In this document: piece by piece, positions 29,179 through 52,000 of the stretch
Layout of the letters: every line of letters begins with the position of its first letter
Position numbering within the stretch: the first letter of the stretch is position 1
Origin: Acidobacteriota bacterium
Lineage (GTDB): Bacteria > Acidobacteriota > Vicinamibacteria > Marinacidobacterales > Marinacidobacteraceae
Assembly: GCA_022828085.1 (NCBI GenBank)
Contig: JAJEIY010000031.1
Location: 1-64,000, forward strand
Direction of reading: 5' to 3'
DNA: 64,000 bases
The notes under the pieces: model-generated
Database searches by the model: none
What the model was told of the DNA's origin: nothing
Seen by the model: the letters and a program-made list of their open reading frames with translations, nothing else
Program-made: the position numbers and the translations under genes

Positions 29179-31362
29179 ATGCACCGGGCGCGTTTCGCGG
29201 TAGCGGTCCTCCTTGTCCTGAGTTGCGCCGTGTCCGCGTCCGCCTTCACCGGCAAGGTGGTTCTCCAGAGCGGCGAACCGGCGGCGGGGGCGATCGTCCA
29301 GATCCTGGGGCATCCGGGCTCGGCCGTAACGGACGGCCAGGGCCGGTTCGAGTGGCTGCCCGACCCGGCGCCCCCCTTCCACGTGCTGGTCGTGCTTCCC
29401 GGAGACCGGTACACCACGCCCGTCTTCGTCGAATCCGTCGACGCGGAAGAACTGCAGATCCGGGTGGAAGCCCTGGCTCTCCACGAGAGCGTCACGATCA
29501 CGAGCGGCGCGGTGCCGCATACGGAAGCGACCCCGGGGAATGCTCCGGCCGTCATTGCCGGAGAGGCGATTCGCGTGCGGCAGGCGCCGCGGCTCACCGA
29601 TGTGCTCGAAGCGGTGCCCGGAGGAAGCCGCGGGAGCGATCTGCACGCGGGCGCGCCCACGATCCGCGGGCTCTCCCGCGGAAGAACGGTGCTCCTCCTC
29701 GACGGGGCCCGGGTGACTTCGGAACGGCGGGCCGGCGCCAGCGCGTCCTTCCTGGACCCGTTCTTCCTCGAGACCGTGGAGGTGGTGCGCGGTCCCTCCT
29801 CGGTGTCGTACGGCTCCGACGCGTTCGGTGGAGTCATCCACGCCCGCACGCGACGGCCGATACCGGGCGGTCCCGTTGGAGCGCGGGCTCGCGGAACCCT
29901 GGGAGCCGGGCTCCCGGAGGCCAGTTTCGGGGCGGAGGTCCAGGGGTCCGCTCTGGGCACCGGGTTCCTGGCCCAGGCGCGGCGGCGGGTCTTCTCCGAG
30001 TACTCGAGTCCCGAGGGCAAGGTCGAAGGCTCGGGCGCCGAGGACTACGGGATGCTGCTCCGGGCCGCCAGAGGCCTGGGCGGAGGACATCTGGGAGTGG
30101 CCCTGCAATACGACGCGGGACGCAACGTCGGACGGCCGCGGCGGTCTTCGGCCACCACGTCCTATCCCGATGAAGACTCCCTCCGGCTGGTCACCGACTA
30201 CCAGTTCGCGCCCCGCTGGGGGTTCGCGCGGCTGGATACCACGGCCTTCGTCGGTGCGCATCGGCTGGTCACCCGGCGGGAGGCGAACGGCGAAACGGCC
30301 GACTCCGAGGTTGCCGCGCACGACTTCATGTTGCGCGGGCGCGGTATCCGGCCGTTCGGCGACGGCCGCCTCGAACTGGGAACCGAGTTTCTCAGCCGGT
30401 TCGGAATCTATTCGGAGACCCGGGGCGGACCGGACGATCCGGTTCTGAACGCCGCGGCGCGCCGTTCGGCGTTGGACGGCGCCCTGCGCCGGGAAGCGTC
30501 GGTGTACGGCCACGCCGAGACCCCGTTGGCGCCCCGGCTTGCCGGGAGCGCCGGAGCCCGCCTCTCCGCGGTGGCGACGCAGTCGGGCCTGGTCGACCGC
30601 CAGGAGCGCCAATCCACCAGTCACGGCGCTCTCAGCGGGTTTCTCGCGCTGCGCGCCGACCTTTGGCGCGGGGTGGCCCTGACCGGCCAGCTCTCCCGGG
30701 GCTTCCGTGACCCGACCCTCTCCGACCGCTACTACGCCGGCCTGAGCGGGCGCGGCATCGTGTTCGGGAATCCCGATCTGACTCCCGAACGGTCGCTCCA
30801 GTCGGACCTGTCGCTTCGTTACGACGGTGACGGGGTCCACGGCGGTTTCTACGCCTATCGCTACCGGATCTCCGACCTCATCGAGCGCCATGAGGAGGGA
30901 GAAGACCTGTACTTCTTCAGGAACCGGGGAGAGGCGACCCTTTCCGGCGTCGAGTTCGAGGTCCAGGTCGGAAACCCGAACGCCCCGTTCCTGCTGGATC
31001 TTTCGGCCGCCCTCACGCACGGTGTGGCCGACGGCGGCGCCGCTCTCGACGGAGTGCCTCCCGCCAACTTCCGGGCGGGCCTGCGCCGCCGCCTGCCGGC
31101 GCAGAGCTTCGCCGAGGTCGTTCTGCTGGCCTTCGCCGCGGACCGCGACCCCGGACCGACCGAAGCCGCGTTGGACGCCTACGCGCGGCTCGATGCCGCC
31201 CTCGGGTTTCCCCTGAGCGGCGGCGCGGAACTGCGCTTCTCCGGCCGGAACCTCCTGAACGCCGCGTATCCCATCAGCGCCGATTCCCGCGCCGTCCTGG
31301 CTCCGGGACGGAGTCTCGTCGGCACGATCGTCTGGAACCTCGGAGCGTCGTCGGGGCCCTAG
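29179..31362 (+). CDS. TonB-dependent outer-membrane receptor
   Basis: A 727-residue TonB-dependent receptor: signal peptide (about residues 1-22, ending ASA-FT), a short carboxypeptidase-regulatory-like beta domain (about 24-90), a plug (about 105-215, with PTIRGLSRGRTVLLLDGAR and VVRGPSSVSYGSDAFGGVI), and a 22-strand barrel to the end. The substrate is not given by sequence. A cobO-type gene follows 4.5 kb downstream beyond the inserted module, so a corrinoid receptor is one possibility, unproven. Confidence 0.92.
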   Translation: MHRARFAVAVLLVLSCAVSASAFTGKVVLQSGEPAAGAIVQILGHPGSAVTDGQGRFEWLPDPAPPFHVLVVLPGDRYTTPVFVESVDAEELQIRVEALALHESVTITSGAVPHTEATPGNAPAVIAGEAIRVRQAPRLTDVLEAVPGGSRGSDLHAGAPTIRGLSRGRTVLLLDGARVTSERRAGASASFLDPFFLETVEVVRGPSSVSYGSDAFGGVIHARTRRPIPGGPVGARARGTLGAGLPEASFGAEVQGSALGTGFLAQARRRVFSEYSSPEGKVEGSGAEDYGMLLRAARGLGGGHLGVALQYDAGRNVGRPRRSSATTSYPDEDSLRLVTDYQFAPRWGFARLDTTAFVGAHRLVTRREANGETADSEVAAHDFMLRGRGIRPFGDGRLELGTEFLSRFGIYSETRGGPDDPVLNAAARRSALDGALRREASVYGHAETPLAPRLAGSAGARLSAVATQSGLVDRQERQSTSHGALSGFLALRADLWRGVALTGQLSRGFRDPTLSDRYYAGLSGRGIVFGNPDLTPERSLQSDLSLRYDGDGVHGGFYAYRYRISDLIERHEEGEDLYFFRNRGEATLSGVEFEVQVGNPNAPFLLDLSAALTHGVADGGAALDGVPPANFRAGLRRRLPAQSFAEVVLLAFAADRDPGPTEAALDAYARLDAALGFPLSGGAELRFSGRNLLNAAYPISADSRAVLAPGRSLVGTIVWNLGASSGP

Positions 31363-31883
31363 CAGCCCGTTGAAGCGACGGGACGGCGTATCCCGTCTGA
31401 ACCGGGCCGCTGCGCTCCCATCGTCGCGTTTCGGCCGGAAACCAGCCGGTGTTCCGCCCCCATGCGGCTCGGCAGCCGGGCGCCTCGCCGCTCTTGGTGA
31501 GGCGCACCGCTTTCGGGACACCCGCACCAGTCCATGGTGACAGTTTCTGGAACATGCGGTGATCCACAAACGTAACGGTCAGCGAGCCTTCTACGCCAAT
31601 CATTGGCCAAAACCGCGACAACCACCCATCGCCTGGTTATCGTCGCGTCGCTGACGCCGTTGACGATCGTACGTGACCGATTGTCATTACATTCATTACA
31701 GCCCGTTTTCGTAGACAGTCAAAGTATTGGGACCGATACGAGCTGGCGCCGCGCTGTGAAACAATCCAAGTACGTCGTACGCAGTAAGAAATCATCCTTT
31801 GGTTCGCATGCGGGTCTCGGTTGTCACCCGCGATACGTGACACATGACACTGACACACATTACGTTGAGATGAGGAAGGGACG
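31363..31883. other. AT-richer non-coding region before the two-gene insert
   Basis: The composition drops sharply from about 31560 on. The segment right after the TonB gene begins AGCAGCCCGTTGAAG, like the ends of some insertion sequences, but no matching end or transposase is present. Near the downstream gene there are three TGACAC copies (31838, 31845, 31851) and an inverted TGTCA at 31822. A 94-codon frame (31603-31887) touches the next gene but is not convincing. I take this as a promoter region plus decayed junk. Confidence 0.55.
31838..31856. repeat. Short TGACAC direct repeats
   Basis: Three copies of TGACAC at 31838-31843, 31845-31850 and 31851-31856 lie 28-46 bases before the start of the helix-turn-helix/PLD-like gene. 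They are candidate binding sites for its own N-terminal DNA-binding domain. Confidence 0.45.
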
Positions 31884-33581
31884 ATGAATCTCACAGTTTC
31901 CGAGTTGGCTCTTGCCGTAGGCAAACAGGAAAACTATGTGCGTCAACACATACACCGGCGCCACCTTTCGGTTCGCCGACAGGGCCGCACTGTCCGGGTT
32001 CCTCTGGACGAGGCGGTGAAGTGGGCGGGAACACGAGGACTTTCGTTTGTGCCGCCGAAGCGGATCAGCTTGACGTTGCTCGACCAGGGGGAAAGGATCG
32101 GGCGACTCACCGTCCTTGCCTGGCATCCCGAAGGCGGTTTGGCGCGGAACCTGTTCACGTTCATGCGTCATCGAAAACGCGACGCTCTGGGACCGTGGTC
32201 CACCGAACCGGATGCAACGTGGACCCTCGAGGAACTCGATGACGATCTGAGTCTGCTGTCCTTCAACGGCTCGTACGAGGAATGCCATGAGCACGTCGAC
32301 AACATCCTTTCGTCGGGTGTACTCGAGGCGCACGAGCGGGAGATTCACTACATCCTCGAAGACAACCCGAGGAACCACTGGGCCTACCGGGACTACCGGC
32401 GTCAGTCGGTGGGTTCGATACGGAGCCCGTTCGCCACCCACAGCGCAGCGATTACCGAGTACTGGAGTTTCGAAGACGGACCTCATCGACAGTGGTTGTC
32501 GCTGTCGGATCCGCTTGCGGGGCGATTGCGCTTGGCGCTTCGACGCCTTGGCTTTCCGCTCGACCGATGTCCGGAGCGCGTCGGCAACCTTCTGGTCGCT
32601 GCCGCCGAAGACGCGATCACGTGTCGACTCACCGCGCATCACGACCAGACGCTTCGACTTCATGTCGACGCCAAGGGACTTCTTCCCCAGACATATCGCG
32701 CGACCGTATGGGCGAGTCACAGCGGGGACGAGGTGCTTCGACGGGAGGTGCCGGTCATGCCGGGGCAGACCACGATCGAACTCGTTTCCGAAGTGGACCG
32801 TACAGGCTTCGCCATCTGCCGCGACTTCGACGGGCAGTACGTGGATCTGGTGGAGAACCTGCCTGGAATGGAGGCCGCCCATGCCGGGCGGTGGGGCGAG
32901 CAGCCGCTCCAGCGGGTCCGGGATCCAGTCGTGCGCGTTCCGCAGCGCGTCCACCCGTCCCGTCCGGCCGCCGCCTTTCCGGAACGCTTTCGGCGGACCG
33001 TCCGGCTCGATCGGGGTATCCGGCAGCAGTGGCTGCACCGCGTGGCGCACCAGAGGGAGGCCGGGGCCCGCCGCGACGCCAACCTGGTGCGTTTCGGCCC
33101 CGGCCGGTTCGCCGACGCGGCACGGCACTTCCTCTACCTCGTTTCCCACGACTCCGGCCACCCGGGGCCGACCTATCTGGCCGACCCGTGCTTCGTCGGA
33201 CACACGATGGCGGATGAAGTGGCCCAGCTCTTCATGGACGTGTGTGCCGCGATTCGGCGCCGGCCGCTGCGGATCCTGTGCGCGGAGCGGCCTCCAAGCG
33301 ACGCTCCGGCGTGGTGGGCCCGCTACCTGCGAAAGGTCGACGCGAACGTCACCGTGCGGACCTTCGTGAATCGCTCCGATGAGCGAGGGTGTTTTCACGA
33401 CCGATACCTGATTACTCCCGTACGCGAGATCCTGATCACGAACTCGTTCAACGGATGGAATCGTTTCGGCGTGACCTTCGTGAGTCTTCCCTACGGGCTC
33501 TACCGTGCGGAAGCGGAGCAGTTGTGGGCCCTGGACCCCGACAACCCTGCTTCGGACGTCCTCGTCCGCGAGATTTCGTGA
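31884..33581 (+). CDS. Helix-turn-helix protein with C-terminal PLD-like (HDR-motif) domain
   Basis: A 565-residue protein I do not recognise as a named family. Residues about 1-50 form an excisionase/MerR-like helix-turn-helix (NLTVSELALAVGKQENYVRQ, then a wing RRQGRTVRVPLDE). Residues about 60-430 are of unknown fold. The last 150 residues resemble phospholipase D-like enzymes of the VPA1262 kind: TYLADPCF near 430, a strand PLRILCAERP, then CFHDRYLIT near 510 and ITNSFNGWNRFGV, where H-x-R-x replaces the usual HxK. GAGGAAGGGA lies directly before ATG 31884. The stop overlaps the next start (TGATG). Base composition is less GC-rich than the neighbours, suggesting transfer. Confidence 0.75.
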   Translation: MNLTVSELALAVGKQENYVRQHIHRRHLSVRRQGRTVRVPLDEAVKWAGTRGLSFVPPKRISLTLLDQGERIGRLTVLAWHPEGGLARNLFTFMRHRKRDALGPWSTEPDATWTLEELDDDLSLLSFNGSYEECHEHVDNILSSGVLEAHEREIHYILEDNPRNHWAYRDYRRQSVGSIRSPFATHSAAITEYWSFEDGPHRQWLSLSDPLAGRLRLALRRLGFPLDRCPERVGNLLVAAAEDAITCRLTAHHDQTLRLHVDAKGLLPQTYRATVWASHSGDEVLRREVPVMPGQTTIELVSEVDRTGFAICRDFDGQYVDLVENLPGMEAAHAGRWGEQPLQRVRDPVVRVPQRVHPSRPAAAFPERFRRTVRLDRGIRQQWLHRVAHQREAGARRDANLVRFGPGRFADAARHFLYLVSHDSGHPGPTYLADPCFVGHTMADEVAQLFMDVCAAIRRRPLRILCAERPPSDAPAWWARYLRKVDANVTVRTFVNRSDERGCFHDRYLITPVREILITNSFNGWNRFGVTFVSLPYGLYRAEAEQLWALDPDNPASDVLVREIS

Positions 33582-35713
33582 TGCCGGTCAAACCGGGCGG
33601 CGCTTCCTCCCTGTCAGCGGCCGCCCGCGAGACCGTCTGGCGGATCTTTGGCGCCGGAGCTCAGCCGGGGGCCAAGGGCTCGGTTTTCGACAGGATCGAA
33701 CCCATGATCCGGAAGCATGTGCCGTCCGCCGACCAGGACCGCGCCATCGTAACGATCAGCGATTGGTTCGAATCGGGCGCTCACGTCAGGTGGTTGAATC
33801 CGGACCGCGCCGAGCTGGTCGCCGATCTGGTGATCGAGGGAGTCGGTTCGCGGCGCTCCGAAGAAGCGGTATGGGCGATCGGATCGATCGGAAGCGAACT
33901 GTCCGCCGCGATGATCAGGCGGCGTTGGGACGGGGAAGAGGTCCGCACCCTCGTGGATGCGGCCGTCAGCGTGCTGAACCGGACCGAGGCTCGCGTGCGG
34001 CACGAGGATCGTGCAGCTGGGCTGGAGGAGGAGGCGGGCAACTTCGAGGGAGTCGTATCCCGGGACGGGATCGTGACCGCCTTCGCGCGGCTCGAAGAAG
34101 AGAGCCTCGAGCTGGTGAATCAGGGATTGCATCCGACGGTGGCCAATCTGATCGATCTCGCGGTCGAGCTCTTCCCCGAACAGGCTCCCGTGCTGGTCTC
34201 CAGGCTGGAGGCGCCGACCATGCAGGCCAGGGCGGCCCGACGCATGGTGGCCCGAACGCCGCCGGGCGATCCCGGCGCGATCGTGGGATGGATCACGGAG
34301 GACGCCGCCGATACGGCCGTCGCGCTGGCCATCGTGCACGTGCTGGGTGCGGCGAGGAAACTGGACGACAGCCAGTCCCCGCGAAAAGACCCTTCGCCCT
34401 CGGGGAAGGCGAGCCCCGGGCAGGCGCCGGAACGTCCCCCGGACGACGCCGGAAAGCTGGTTCTTCAACTCCTGGGGCGCCTGGCGAACCTGGATTCACC
34501 GGATTGCCTGCGGTGGATCGGCGAGGTCCTGAATCAGGCTCCGCGGGCGCTGTCGTTGCCGGACGGCGGACAAAAGCCAAAGCTCCTGGCCCACCTCGAG
34601 CACGAGTGCACGAGACTGGCGGTGAGCCGCTTCCGCGAGCCGGGGTCCGCGCCCCTGCTCCCGCACTTCCAGGTGGGGCTCCTGCCCGGCCGGGGAAGGC
34701 ACTGGGTGCGCCACCAGATGGCGATTGCCCGGGCGATGCGTACTTCGGCGCCGGGACGAGCGGAGGAACTCGCGCGAGCCACCCTGGACGAACATCGGCG
34801 ACAGTTGGCGGAACAGCAGGATGGCCGTTACCTGGCCCCCGACTGGGACTCCTGGAGCGATCGGGAATGGCTCGAAGGCCTGGGAACGGCGCTGGCCCTG
34901 GGCCGCAAGGATCTGGATCTCCGCGCCTGGGTCGCCAACGAGTGCCGGGACCTGCCGCTGAGCGTCTGGGACGCCGAGGAGGATCCCGATGGATTCGCGA
35001 TGGCGGAACAGATTGCGCAGCACTGGTTCCTCGTCGCGCTCCTCGCGATTCCGCAGCGGGAAGAGTTCGGCCGACCCTTCGAGCCGCCCGTGGTGCGCGC
35101 CCTCGCCGAGGCTGTCTGGGCTCACTGCAGATTCTGCCGGCCGCATCTCCAGACGCATCCGGAAGCGTCGGTCGCCGCCGAGCTGGCGGCCCGTTACGCG
35201 ATGCGGAGCGGGCGGGACAACGACCAGTGGCTGCTCGACCAGGCCCGCGGCGAAGGCCTGGGTCCCGGAGCTCTCCGCGTCCTGCTGGAAGAGCGGCGAT
35301 CCCGGGGCCGTCGGCCGGCCGGGGGCATTTCCGACGTTGACGACGTGATCGTGGCGGAACTCGTGCGGATCGCACTGGACCGGTTCGATGATGGTGGCCA
35401 GTTCGACCTGGACGGCCTTCGCGACTGGGGAAGGCTCTGGCTCCTGATCGGCGCGGTGGACCCGGCGGAGAGGACGGCGATGGCCATTGTCAGTTTCCCT
35501 TTGCGCGGCGCGGACAGGCACTCGCGGATCCTGGCGCTCAAGCTCCTCGGACTGGTTGTTCGCCACCGCAAACCACGTCCCGGCGTGGCCGAGTACGTGG
35601 TACCGCTCTACAACCAGCTCTGGCCAGTGTTCGCCGTCACCCCGAACCAGGAAAGGGAAGACCGCGAGGAAATCGAGAAGGCCTTCCTGGGCTCGGACCT
35701 CATCGCCGGGTAG
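33581..35713 (+). CDS. Large helical protein of unknown function, partner of the PLD-like gene
   Basis: A 710-residue protein with no family I can name. It is predicted soluble and mostly helical, rich in Leu, Ala, Arg and Glu, with short HEAT/ARM-like helix pairs (for example VDAAVSVLNRTEARVRHE near 125 and LAIVHVLGAARKL near 250), a Pro/Ser-rich linker near residues 262-285, and Trp-rich stretches near 420 (WDSWSDREWLEGLG). No signal peptide, TM helix, Walker or nuclease motif. Its ATG shares a base with the stop of the PLD-like gene, so the two are co-translated and probably work as one system. The start has no Shine-Dalgarno of its own. Confidence 0.72.
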   Translation: MPVKPGGASSLSAAARETVWRIFGAGAQPGAKGSVFDRIEPMIRKHVPSADQDRAIVTISDWFESGAHVRWLNPDRAELVADLVIEGVGSRRSEEAVWAIGSIGSELSAAMIRRRWDGEEVRTLVDAAVSVLNRTEARVRHEDRAAGLEEEAGNFEGVVSRDGIVTAFARLEEESLELVNQGLHPTVANLIDLAVELFPEQAPVLVSRLEAPTMQARAARRMVARTPPGDPGAIVGWITEDAADTAVALAIVHVLGAARKLDDSQSPRKDPSPSGKASPGQAPERPPDDAGKLVLQLLGRLANLDSPDCLRWIGEVLNQAPRALSLPDGGQKPKLLAHLEHECTRLAVSRFREPGSAPLLPHFQVGLLPGRGRHWVRHQMAIARAMRTSAPGRAEELARATLDEHRRQLAEQQDGRYLAPDWDSWSDREWLEGLGTALALGRKDLDLRAWVANECRDLPLSVWDAEEDPDGFAMAEQIAQHWFLVALLAIPQREEFGRPFEPPVVRALAEAVWAHCRFCRPHLQTHPEASVAAELAARYAMRSGRDNDQWLLDQARGEGLGPGALRVLLEERRSRGRRPAGGISDVDDVIVAELVRIALDRFDDGGQFDLDGLRDWGRLWLLIGAVDPAERTAMAIVSFPLRGADRHSRILALKLLGLVVRHRKPRPGVAEYVVPLYNQLWPVFAVTPNQEREDREEIEKAFLGSDLIAG

Positions 35714-36575: not shown

Positions 36576-38139
<1,564 letters not shown>

Positions 38140-38141
<2 letters not shown>

Positions 38142-38164
38142 TGCCGGCCGGAGGCCGGCGCTCG
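38140..38164 (+). repeat. Two-hairpin dispersed repeat, copy 7, between convergent genes
   Basis: GAT then GCCGGCC-GGA-GGCCGGC and GCTC. It starts at the stop codon of the SDR/DUF2867 gene and lies 16 bases from the 3' end of the convergent aminotransferase gene, so it could end both transcripts. Confidence 0.65.
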
Positions 38165-38179
38165 GCGCCGGCGCGCCCC

Positions 38180-39433
38180 TTACGCGACGATCAGCGGACG
38201 CAGCGCCTTCAGGCCCGCCAGCGCCCGCTCCACGTGCTCCGCGGTGTTGTACAGGTGCGGTGACAGCCGGAAACCGCCGGAAGTCGAGCCGGCGATGCCG
38301 TGCTCGTCGTACATCCGGGAGAACACCTCGCGGCGGGACTCGGCCGGCACCTCCACGATGACGACGCCCGCCGAGAGGGCGTCGTCGATCGGGGTCACCA
38401 GCGGGATGCCCGCTTCCGTGAGGCCCTTCTTGAGGCGGCCCGCCAGGTCGTACATCCGTTTCTCGACCCGCTCCGCGCCGATCTCGGCGTGGAACTCGGC
38501 GGTGGTGCCCATCGCCGCGAGACAGGCGTCGTCGCGCTGTCCCATGGATTCGAACTTCCGGGCCCCGCTCGGGTCCGGGTCGGCGTCGCCGCCCCAGCCG
38601 GGGGCCACCTCGGAGGGCCAGAGCTTCGGAATGGTCTCGGTGCGGACCACCAGCACGCCGCACTCCTTGGGTCCGCAGAACCACTTGTGGGAACTGCTCG
38701 TGAAGGTGTCGGCGCCGATCGCGGGCACGTCCACCGACAGCCCGCCGAAGCTCTGGGCTCCGTCCACGTGGACGTGGATGCCGCGTTCGTGCGCGGCGTC
38801 CGCGATCCGGCGCACCGGCAGGTGAATGCCGGAGACGTTCGAGACGTGGGTGATCGCAATCACCTTCGTGTTCGCGCCCAGCGCCTCGATGAAGGGAGCG
38901 GCGAGATCGTCCGCCGCCGCCGGCGCTTTCGGCGCCGACACCCGCCGGACCGTGAAGCCGTAGCGGGCCGCGCGGACGTCCCACGCGACGTTGTTCGTGG
39001 GATGGTTCTGGTCCCAGAGGACGACCTCGTCGCCCTCTCCGAGAACCAGGCCGGCGTTCACGATGTTGTTCGCCTCGCTGGTGTTTCGCACGAGGGCCAG
39101 TTCGTCGGCCGTGACTCCGAGCTGCGCCGCCACCTCCTCCCGCGCCGACTCCCGCAGGTCCCCGAACTTCCCCCGGTTCTGGAACGAGCAGTCGTGGTCG
39201 ATGTCGCGGGTCAGCTCGCTCACCCGGTCCGCCACCGACCGGGGCGAGGGACAGAGGTTGGCCGCGTTCATGGGCACCTTGTCCTCTTCGAAGGGGAACT
39301 CCCACCGCACCATCCGGAACAGCGCCTCGTCGTCGGCGGCGACGGCCCGGAGGGCCGGGAAAGCCGCCGGAACGGCGGCCGTGGTGCGCAGGAACGAGCG
39401 CCGGGTAACGGCATTCGAGAGGGACTTCGTCAT
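38180..39433 (-). CDS. Exported class V aminotransferase-fold PLP enzyme
   Basis: A 417-residue fold-type I PLP enzyme of the class V (NifS/CefD) group. A twin-arginine signal is visible at the start (TRRSFLRTTAAV). Active-site landmarks: RNTSEANNIV near residue 123, HVDGAQSFGGL near 222 (the PLP ring-binding Asp) and TFTSSSHKWFCGPKECGVL near 240, where the Lys of SSHKW binds PLP. Isopenicillin N epimerase-like or cysteine desulfurase-like activities are possible; the periplasmic location argues against Fe-S assembly. GGAGG lies 8 bases before ATG 39433. Confidence 0.88.
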   Translation of the reverse strand: MTKSLSNAVTRRSFLRTTAAVPAAFPALRAVAADDEALFRMVRWEFPFEEDKVPMNAANLCPSPRSVADRVSELTRDIDHDCSFQNRGKFGDLRESAREEVAAQLGVTADELALVRNTSEANNIVNAGLVLGEGDEVVLWDQNHPTNNVAWDVRAARYGFTVRRVSAPKAPAAADDLAAPFIEALGANTKVIAITHVSNVSGIHLPVRRIADAAHERGIHVHVDGAQSFGGLSVDVPAIGADTFTSSSHKWFCGPKECGVLVVRTETIPKLWPSEVAPGWGGDADPDPSGARKFESMGQRDDACLAAMGTTAEFHAEIGAERVEKRMYDLAGRLKKGLTEAGIPLVTPIDDALSAGVVIVEVPAESRREVFSRMYDEHGIAGSTSGGFRLSPHLYNTAEHVERALAGLKALRPLIVA

Positions 39434-49031: not shown

Positions 49032-49076
49032 GCGCGGCATGGAGTGCCGCGCGTGCCGGCCGGAGGTCGGCGTTCC
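49032..49076 (+). repeat. Two-hairpin dispersed repeat, copy 9
   Basis: Stem 1 GCGCGGCA-TGGAG-TGCCGCGC, linker GT, stem 2 GCCGGCC-GGA-GGTCGGC (one G-T pair), then GTTCC. It lies between the SDR and the convergent addA-like gene and ends 12 bases from the latter's stop codon. Confidence 0.8.
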
Positions 49077-49087
49077 AGGCCGTCGCG

Positions 49088-52000
49088 CTACACGTAGAGC
49101 AGGACGCCCCTGGCGGGTTGACCGGTGGCGCGCTCCACCGCCCGGGCGTAGAGAGCGACCTGCCGGCGGTAGCGGGCCTCGGTGGCCTGGAACCCGGGGT
49201 CCTCGGGCGGCCGGGAATCCGTCTTGAAGTCGAGGACGGTCCAGGCGCCCCCGGCGTGCGGCTGGAAGACCAGGTCGGCGACTCCCTCCACCAGGGTCGG
49301 GCCCGAACCGGCGGGAAGGGAGGTGTCCCCGGGGTCTGCGAACGACTCTCCTGCCAGCGCCGATCCGGGTTCGAATCCGTCACCCGGGGACGCACTTCCG
49401 CCGGCATCCTCCGCGGCCGGTTCCAGGTGGAGGAGCGGCAACTCCCGATAACAATTCCCGTGTTCCGCCGCCCGCCGCGCCTCGGCCAGCAGCGGGTGGC
49501 CGAGCGCGGAAGTCACCGCTTTCGCCGCGGCCCGGCCGAGTTCTTCCTCGAGCTCCAGTTCCCGGGCGGCGCGGGCGGCCTCCGCTTCGATCCCGGCCTC
49601 GTCGGCGTCGAAAGGAATCCGCTCGAGGACCCGGTGGACCAGCTCTCCGAACGCGACCCCGGCAGGACGCCCGGAATCCCGCGGCGGCCCTTCCACCCCC
49701 AGTCTCTCGACGTCCACCTCCCGGAGATCGCCGGCGGCTTCCAGCGCGGCGAACGCGGTGGCCGGGATTGCCCGGCGGGTCGGGACCTGCCCGGCGTCGA
49801 TGGCCTGCTGCCGCCGGGCGAGGAAGGCGGCTTCGGCTGCCTTGCCGCCGCCGGAGGCGTCGCCCTCGGCATCCGTCCGGAGCAGGTCCCATAGCGGGCC
49901 GGTTCCCCGCCGGCCGTCCGCTCCGTTCGCGGGGCCCGATCCCCCCGTCCGGGGTGCGATGGCGCCATGTCCGAGCAACGGCTTGAGCCCCGCCGCTACC
50001 GGGGCGAGCAGGCTTTCCTCCGGGAAATCTCCCTCGGATACCGGCGCCGCCAGCAGATCCCGGGCGCGGGTCATCGCGACGTAGAGCAGCCGGTCCAGTT
50101 CGGCGAGGTCCTCCGCCTCCTCGGCCGGCGTTCCCTCGAGCAGGTCCCAGGGAACGATGCCGGCGCCCAGATCGCACGCGTAGAGCCGCTCCGCCGCGTT
50201 CACGATGCGGCTCGCCCGTCCGTGGCGCTGCACGGCCCCGTCGCAGAGCGCCACCACCGGGAACTCGAGGCCCTTGGCGGTATGGGTGGTCATGATCCGC
50301 ACCCCGCGTACGTCCTCGTCGATGGCGTGGGCCGATCCCGCATCCGGATTCTCCGCTTCCGACGCGAGTTGCTCCACGAACCCGCGGAAGGAGAGTCCTC
50401 CGCGCGCCTCGAAGGCGCGGGCCGCCTCGGCAAGCCGGCGGAGGTTCGAGAGCACCTGATCCGGTGAGTTCCAGAAGGCGAAACCGGTCTCCGCGCGGTG
50501 CCTTCCCAGGAGCTGCTGGAGCGTCACCGCGATCGGCTGGTGGGTACGGCGCCGGTGCAGGTCGTAGAGGAACGCCAGCCCGTCCCGGATCGTCCGGTCC
50601 ACCTGTCCCGCGTCGTTGCCGTCATCCAGCTCCAGGAGCCGGGCCCGGGCGGGCCGCAGACGAATCTCGGGATGGCGTTCCCGAAAGAGGAAGAGGTCCT
50701 GGTCCGGGATCGCGAACAGGGGGCCTCTGAGGGTGGCGTAAACGCTCAGCTCGTCCTCGGGGAACTCGACGGCGGTGAGGGCCGCCCGCAGGAACGACAG
50801 CTCGGCGCTGCCGATGTAGGTCTGCACCGCCGCCAGCGAGTGCGGGATGCCGAGGTCCTGAAGGGCGTCGGCATAGGGCTGGGGTACGAGCCGCCGGTAG
50901 GAGCGGAAGCGGCGGAACAACAGGCAGATGTCGCTTGGCTCCACCGGACGCGGCGCCCCGCCGTCGGGCGAGGAGACCTCGAAGCCGCTGTCGAGGAGCC
51001 CACCGACGAAGGCCGCGACCGCCTTTGGCTCCTGCTCCTCGAGGTGTTTGACGTAGGGCGCGTGCGCCAGCCGGATGGCCGCGAGCGCGGGTCCCGGCAT
51101 CGGCTCCCGGGCGGCGTGGAGCGGCACGTAGTCCACCTGCCGGGCGAGACCTCCAAGTCCCGGGCCCGTCTCGAACTTCGGCCCGAGATTCCTGTTCACG
51201 AAGTCGCAGACGCCGGGCACCGAACGGAAGTTCGTGGTCAGCCGAACCTCGGCGGCGCCGCTCGCGAGCAGCCGCTGCTTGACGCGCAGGTAGTGGCCCA
51301 CGTCGGCCCGCCGGAACCGGTAGATGGACTGCTTCGGATCCCCGACCAGGCAGAGCCGGCCGGGACGCGGGACCGCCTCGCCCCAGTCGCCGTCCGGCGG
51401 TTCCCCGGCGGTGAGCAGCAGGACGATCTCCGTCTGCATCGGGTCGGTGTCCTGGTATTCGTCCACCACGAGGTGGCGGAATCGCCCGGCGAGTTCCCGG
51501 CGGACCTCCGCGTGGTCCCGCAGCAGGCTGCGCGTCCGCAGGAGCAGGTCGTCGAAGTCGAGCAGGCCCGCTTTCGCCTTCGCGTTCTCGTAGTCGTCCA
51601 CCAGCCCGCGCAGGTCCTCCCGCAGGAGTGCCGCCAGGTCAGCGTTGCTCTTCTGCTGGAACGCGGCCAGCCGGGTCCGGAACCCGTCCCGCCATCTGCG
51701 CGTGTGGGGGAAGCCGGAAGGCGTGCGGCCGCCATACGCCGGGACCCTCAGCTCCGCGAGCGCCTGCTCGAGCCAGTCCAGGTCCCTTCCGGAGGCGGCT
51801 TCCCGCACCCGGATCTCGCGGGCGAGATCCGCGGCGGCGGCGAGGGAGCGGATCAGCCAGTTGGGTCTCGCCCCCGGCGGGTCCTTCGGGAGCGACCGGT
51901 AGAGCTCCTCGAGCATGAAGAGCGAAGGGACCGGTTCGCGCTCCTCGCCGCCGGGTCGTTCCACCAGCTCCAGGATCGCGGTCTCCGCATCCCAGGCGCG

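Follow-up and report, generated by a model that had tools for sequence, protein, structure and literature searches.

What do the two overlapping genes at positions 31,884 to 35,713 of a 64,000-nucleotide stretch from an Acidobacteriota bacterium (contig JAJEIY010000031.1, forward strand; the whole stretch is referred to as the window) encode, and do they form a defence system? A reading made from the letters alone (the sequence-only reading) had described them as a helix-turn-helix (HTH)/phospholipase D (PLD)-like protein with a large helical partner and as a candidate defence or mobile-element system. The first gene product, P1 (31884–33581, + strand, 565 amino acids), comprises a putative winged HTH and a VPA1262-like region with a predicted PLD fold, and the second, P2 (33581–35713, + strand, 710 amino acids), is a predicted α-helical solenoid; the TGA stop of P1 and the ATG start of P2 have one base in common (TGATG). 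The explanation that we favour, at evenly balanced confidence, is that the pair is a self-regulated (self-repressed) two-gene defence system, a form of the uncharacterised VPA1262 type that carries a fused HTH.

The relationship of P1 to VPA1262 proteins was determined at the profile level, using the P1 proteins of eight loci (the window, L039–L043, L044, and L045). The hhalign comparison of the eight P1 sequences with 13 VPA1262 proteins gave a Prob value of 97.8 and an E value of 7.3e-13 over 433 columns, and residues 83–539 of P1 (32130–33500, + strand) were assigned to the VPA1262-like region; with only three VPA1262 members, Prob was 92.5 and E was 4.8e-7. Three of the eight P1 proteins also matched the family profile NF040700 directly (best E 2.3e-9). 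The window P1 was not among them and gave no match to this profile at E 0.1 or 10, and the copy at L013, which lies on the same contig as L044 and is a diverged second copy, scored 26.4 bits, below the curated cut-off of 80 bits. The kinship suggested by the sequence-only reading was thereby supported at the profile level, and the assignment of P1 as a distant relative of the VPA1262 family fused to a winged HTH is well supported. VPA1262 proteins (NF040700, NF040699) resemble P1 over approximately 480 aligned residues with the D-P, H-D-R, and S-x-N elements in common, but they have no aligned N-terminal winged HTH, and P1 stays below the curated cut-off of the family. The proposed excisionase/MerR-like winged HTH covers residues 1–50 of P1 (31884–32033, + strand). 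TIGR01764 matched four of the eight P1 proteins under its cut-off, and the predicted model of residues 1–50 shows the order helix, helix, two strands, helix, in line with the excisionase-like HTH proposed before; for P1 alone, TIGR01764 (E 0.0029, the best of the four) and HTH_17 (E 0.011) were both weak and under cut-off. Sequence profile searches of the PDB gave no match for P1.

The C-terminal domain of P1 (residues 393–565, 33060–33578, + strand) was assigned by VIA-align and Foldseek analysis of the structural model, in which pLDDT values were about 60–84 across most of residues 400–565. VIA-align placed NucT first (Z 12.7, root-mean-square deviation 3.0, 144 residues), followed by the PLD 7e0m (Z 12.3), Zucchini (10.6), SauUSI (10.5), TrmB (9.5), BfiI (9.4), and MITD1 (9.3), and the 50 identifiable rows of the table were all PLD-fold proteins. 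Foldseek ranked TrmBL2 first (E 2.2e-5), with 7e0m at E 2.9e-5. A PLD fold of this domain is therefore well supported by the model comparison, as had been predicted, and a fold unrelated to PLD was not seen. The DPCF, HDRYLI, and TNSFNG motifs noticed earlier lie at residues 434–437, 505–510, and 519–524, respectively. Within them, H505-D506-R507 (33396–33404, + strand), a variant of the HKD motif, and S521-F522-N523 (33444–33452, + strand), an S-x-N element, belong to an F-H-D-R-Y...S-x-N motif that is invariant in all eight P1 proteins. The D-P, H-D-R, and S-x-N elements are invariant and common to P1 and VPA1262 proteins, H-D-R and S-x-N being present at the aligned place in 8/8 P1 and 13/13 VPA1262 sequences, and the motif may mark an active or binding site. 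The canonical HxK(x)4D motif is absent from all eight P1 proteins, as Lys is replaced by Arg and the place of Asp is taken by Pro or Gly, and each P1 chain carries a single H-D-R motif. The domain is thus similar in fold to the single-motif PLD nucleases NucT, BfiI, SauUSI, and Zucchini, from which P1 is set apart by Arg in place of Lys, by the lack of an Asp four residues further along, and by a large additional N-terminal region.

A candidate operator was found in the conserved AT-richer leader of the operon (31640–31883, + strand; mean column identity 86% across six genus loci). CATTACA occurs twice in the 64-kb window (31685 and 31694), both times 5′ of P1, forming a tandem CATTACA-N2-CATTACA (31685–31700, + strand) that is the predicted site of the P1 HTH. 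L044 contains three copies (3830, 3838, and 3843) and L045 two (7960 and 7965), all 5′ of P1; in L045 they directly follow a TATAAT box, a placement as expected for a repressor site. The upstream regions of the window, L044, and L045 are otherwise not alignable by eye. A 7-mer repeated in all three 250-nt regions upstream of P1 was obtained in 0/4000 dinucleotide shuffles and 0/4000 random triples of real sequence. Shorter words were weaker: a common repeated 6-mer was found in 0/4000 shuffles on one strand and in 76 on both, a 5-mer in 80 and 1299, respectively. Bare counts of CATTACA are not significant (at least two copies in 9/100 shuffles of the window and 61/200 of L045, at least three in 0/200 of L044), and the case is made by repetition and position. 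Tandem copies 0–8 bp apart occur once in the 3.57 Mb of the own genome (reversed control, 0), and the exact tandem is present once each in two of six further genomes (G001 and G004), both times 5′ of a P1. G002, G006, and G007 have degenerate copies, and the overlapping copies of L045 fall outside the exact tandem pattern. The relaxed word [CT][AG]TTAC[AG] was found within 400 nt upstream of P1 at least once in 8/8 loci and at least twice in 7/8, and the recognition part of the HTH is nearly identical in all eight P1 proteins. Since the tandem is unique in the genome and the repeats lie 5′ of P1 in three diverged lineages, they are probably the operator of P1's own HTH. No sigma-70-like or terminator-like site was found in the leader, and positions 31340–31920 gave no Rfam match.

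A unique operator and an HTH joined to a PLD-like domain in one chain would also fit a pure transcription regulator, in which the PLD-like domain has no role beyond ligand binding, P2 acts as a separate effector or as a co-regulator, and no nuclease is involved. TrmB, in which a winged HTH is joined to a sugar-binding PLD-like domain that is catalytically dead, is such a protein. The first rank of TrmBL2 in Foldseek, the Z score of TrmB, and the loss of the HKD Lys and Asp from P1 speak for this explanation. However, H, D, R, S, and N are retained without exception in P1 (8/8) and in VPA1262 proteins (13/13), the latter without an aligned HTH, and nucleases and phospholipases outrank TrmB by Z score. 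The likeness to the archaeal regulators TrmB and TrmBL2 is one of fold only, and P1 differs from them in being much larger and in having a conserved VPA1262-type motif and a coupled helical partner. We regard the regulator explanation as unlikely, albeit the best of the alternatives to a defence system.

The partner P2 was modelled by AlphaFold2 with a pLDDT of 81 and a pTM of 0.75 as an almost wholly helical protein, which bears out the large helical protein described by the sequence-only reading. Foldseek returned generic helical repeats only (best E 1.8e-4 at a TM-score of 0.16; importin-13, TM-score 0.34), PDB sequence profile searches gave nothing convincing for P2, and relatives outside the pair were not detectable. 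The comparison with three alignments of VPA1262 partners gave Prob values of 0.1, 5.2, and 0.2, a result at the sequence level that says nothing on fold; VPA1262 partners of either kind thus have no sequence kinship to P2.

P1 and P2 were found together at every locus counted. P1 was present in six of 100 related genomes including its own, i.e. in 5/7 other genomes of the genus and 0/92 outside it, and P2 was found in the same six genomes, one of which (G001) holds two copies. When 84,980 species were scanned, each represented by one genome, eight matches were obtained: the five genus loci (L039–L043; Acidobacteria metagenome-assembled genomes, MAGs), L044, L045 in a Caldilineaceae (Chloroflexota) MAG, and L046. 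The last (36% identity over 67 residues), which is out of frame and falls within an efflux-pump region, was rejected as a chance match and was left out of the count of loci. A profile search of the phylum with P1, in which three candidates per genome were scored, identified 1/396 genomes, the own one; in the class of the Caldilineaceae genome, 1/396 was identified, again that genome itself. P2 lies 3′ of P1 in 8/8 loci from two phyla, so that the conserved adjacency looked for was indeed observed, and a restriction of homologues to single genes in housekeeping places was not seen. The two most distant loci have identities of 43–44% (P1) and 33–37% (P2). In five other genus genomes, the pair is at the same site, with the order TonB receptor–P1–P2–cobO in four; the G001 locus is on a 5.4-kb contig that spans the cobO side only. 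The TGATG junction is retained in five genus loci, P1 and P2 overlap in L045, and they are a few tens of bases apart in L044. Among relatives, dN/dS was 0.10–0.20 for P1 and 0.17–0.36 for P2, the top values mostly coming from pairs with L039; because of these low ratios and the maintenance of both frames, the pair is more than a chance arrangement and is under purifying selection. No empty site was recovered: the 14 kb around the pair matched G003 and G005 in repeats and short stretches only, and different genes come after the TonB gene (67% identity) in G008 and G009. We take the SB and CO MAGs to come from sponges. Such a source is given for Bin61 (MPMW), an Acidobacteria bin of Aplysina aerophoba (PMC5649159), and bin names of the jk18x type belong to Caribbean Ircinia sponges (PMC9531527).

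At the window site, the two overlapping genes are flanked as described before, with a TonB-dependent receptor upstream (PF00593, E 2.6e-32) and the CobA/CobO/BtuR adenosyltransferase cobO downstream (PF02572, E 1.1e-61), followed by an NAD-binding/DUF2867 protein. The region had been taken for an AT-richer two-gene insert. This holds for the leader (31500–31883, 54% GC; 0.3% of equally long windows are as low) and for P1 (64%; 2.1% as low), against 70% for the 64-kb window, but not for P2 (68.5%; 15% as low), so that an evenly AT-rich insert is not supported; nor is a fresh one, as the pair is kept vertically at this site and at five equivalents in the genus. Neither protein reached the curated cut-offs of Pfam and NCBIfam, and the PHROGs library gave nothing beyond one match at E 0.14.

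Two dispersed repeats were observed in the window. One, approximately 110 bp long (31390–31499), lies after the TonB gene and before the P1 leader. Scoring of 40 of 85 candidates gave 34 matches in the own genome, and matches are also numerous in G005 and G003. Its predicted folding is somewhat more favourable than that of shuffled sequences on either strand (z −2.3 and −2.1), and it has no Rfam match. The other, short and GC-rich (38103–38182), has many copies in G003 and a few in G005 and occurs also at window positions 49054–49088, in L039, and in L043.

In the mechanism that we infer for a self-repressed defence system, P1 would combine the parts of repressor and effector in a single chain. 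Its winged HTH would bind the tandem CATTACA at its own promoter and hold the operon low, and its VPA1262-like part would be a PLD-fold phosphodiesterase, probably a nuclease, with a homodimer joining two H-D-R/S-x-N motifs. The P2 solenoid, made by translational coupling, would bind P1 as a scaffold, brake, or infection sensor. Upon infection, P1 would leave the operator or be released by P2 and then cut nucleic acid.

The surroundings of the diverged copies and of VPA1262 genes point in part to defence. At L013/L044, a type IIG restriction enzyme (1078 bits) adjoins the pair and is transcribed divergently. The HTH of this diverged P1 is similar to the small HTH protein mad1 of the MADS system (E 0.02); the likeness is confined to the HTH, and the remaining MADS genes were not seen at L013. 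At L045, a DrmD-like helicase (E 8.5e-96), a TmtA/Sacsin-like ATPase (E 1.8e-59), and a SAVED-PDDEXK effector (E 1.3e-122) lie within approximately 8 kb; an AbiEi/AbiEii-like pair (AbiEi_2, E 0.095) is weakly indicated, and one gene reads to us as tyrosine-recombinase-like. As a whole, L045:1-16960 is a dense defence island in the Caldilineaceae MAG.

In Vibrio parahaemolyticus, VPA1262 itself is described as an island gene with no function given (PMC1464126). NF040700 matched 7/396 genomes of the phylum (three over cut-off) and 0/14 control genomes. Two protein queries gave 13 plasmid records with VPA1262 genes (7 + 6), and 10 of these contexts were inspected. A co-directional partner of at least 449 amino acids lies downstream in 10/10, in one case after an insertion sequence element, and clear defence neighbours are present in four: restriction endonucleases (L075), a CBASS cyclase with an S-4TM effector (L076), DUF4297 with a reverse transcriptase (L077), and SIR2 (L081). 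The VPA1262 family thus resembles the P1/P2 pair in its large downstream co-directional partner and its defence-type neighbours. Three of five three-gene VPA1262 operons inspected have an extra small gene with its own HDRF motif directly 3′ of the VPA1262 gene (L078:7649-8290, L079:7518-8201, and L033:6524-7198), so that two such motifs may come together in a single active site; the extra genes of L080 and L081 have no HDRF motif as annotated. The L031, L075, and L076 pairs matched no PADLOC model. The VPA1262 proteins of L078 (E 7e-9 and 3e-6) and L081 (PDC-S05, E 1.1e-5) weakly matched the PLD-like phage-defence candidates PDC-S05 and NsnC, in L078 both of them, which gave no match to P1 and P2. 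The literature on PLD and antiphage systems, as far as covered (DISARM, CoCoNuT, and similar; few subscription papers), does not name the pair.

Several observations weigh against a nuclease-based defence system. The whole P1 model is of low confidence (pLDDT 62, pTM 0.41), and the PLD-fold claim therefore rests on the C-terminal domain; as Lys and Asp of HKD are gone, catalysis may be lost or altered. PADLOC-DB 2.0.0 gave 0 matches to P1 and P2 at E 10. No relative of P1 was found in plasmids or phages, nor one of the L045 P1 in plasmids, and four viral-contig scans found no P1 relative, each being seeded by two exact peptide patterns that could miss distant ones. In L039 (G004), P2 is interrupted by an in-frame stop at codon 546, with P1 intact and the tandem CATTACA retained; at this locus, the system may be decaying, or P2 may not be required. 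The counts of defence neighbours are raw counts without a baseline, and the other six plasmid contexts showed no clear ones. Finally, six of the eight loci have housekeeping surroundings (TonB/cobO) in which the pair is vertically kept, and inheritance of this kind within the own genus weakens the defence claim. The defence role proposed by the sequence-only reading is thus borne out in part: restriction or multi-system neighbours at 2/8 loci and defence neighbours in the VPA1262 plasmids favour it, and the six loci among housekeeping genes do not.

The constant TonB/cobO place and the strong purifying selection would suit a domesticated housekeeping function in the genus, e.g. DNA repair or regulation of the TonB or cobalamin genes, whatever the origin of the pair. 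Diverged copies elsewhere, beside the restriction enzyme in the genus and in the Chloroflexota defence island, and the absence of the pair from 2/7 other genus members argue against this function, which we consider improbable. Marginally less probable still is a toxin–antitoxin-like or mobile-element maintenance pair, with P1 as autoregulator, one of the proteins as toxin, and retention for locus stability, for inferred autoregulation, translational coupling, and HipA and RES toxin–antitoxin genes near the VPA1262 genes of L031 and L032 are opposed by the size of P1 and P2, far above that of usual toxin–antitoxin proteins, by a window site without mobile-element genes, and by low dN/dS and a fixed place over six genomes.

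A self-repressed defence system remains the explanation that we prefer; a more tentative proposal concerns the family, and to it we give distinctly less than even confidence. VPA1262-type operons would form an undescribed anti-phage class in which a conserved H-D-R PLD-fold effector is combined with helical partners that can be exchanged and that determine the signal sensed; in the three-gene form, a second small H-D-R protein would complete the active site, and in the window variant, the HTH-fused nuclease would repress its own operon at CATTACA repeats, linking release from the operator to activation. If true, this would provide a function for the VPA1262 family, which figures in two papers of the literature searched, only as an island gene number. 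It would also give an example of an effector that acts as its own repressor and of a PLD-fold effector with Arg replacing the catalytic Lys, and the defined operator of CATTACA repeats would make the regulation directly testable.

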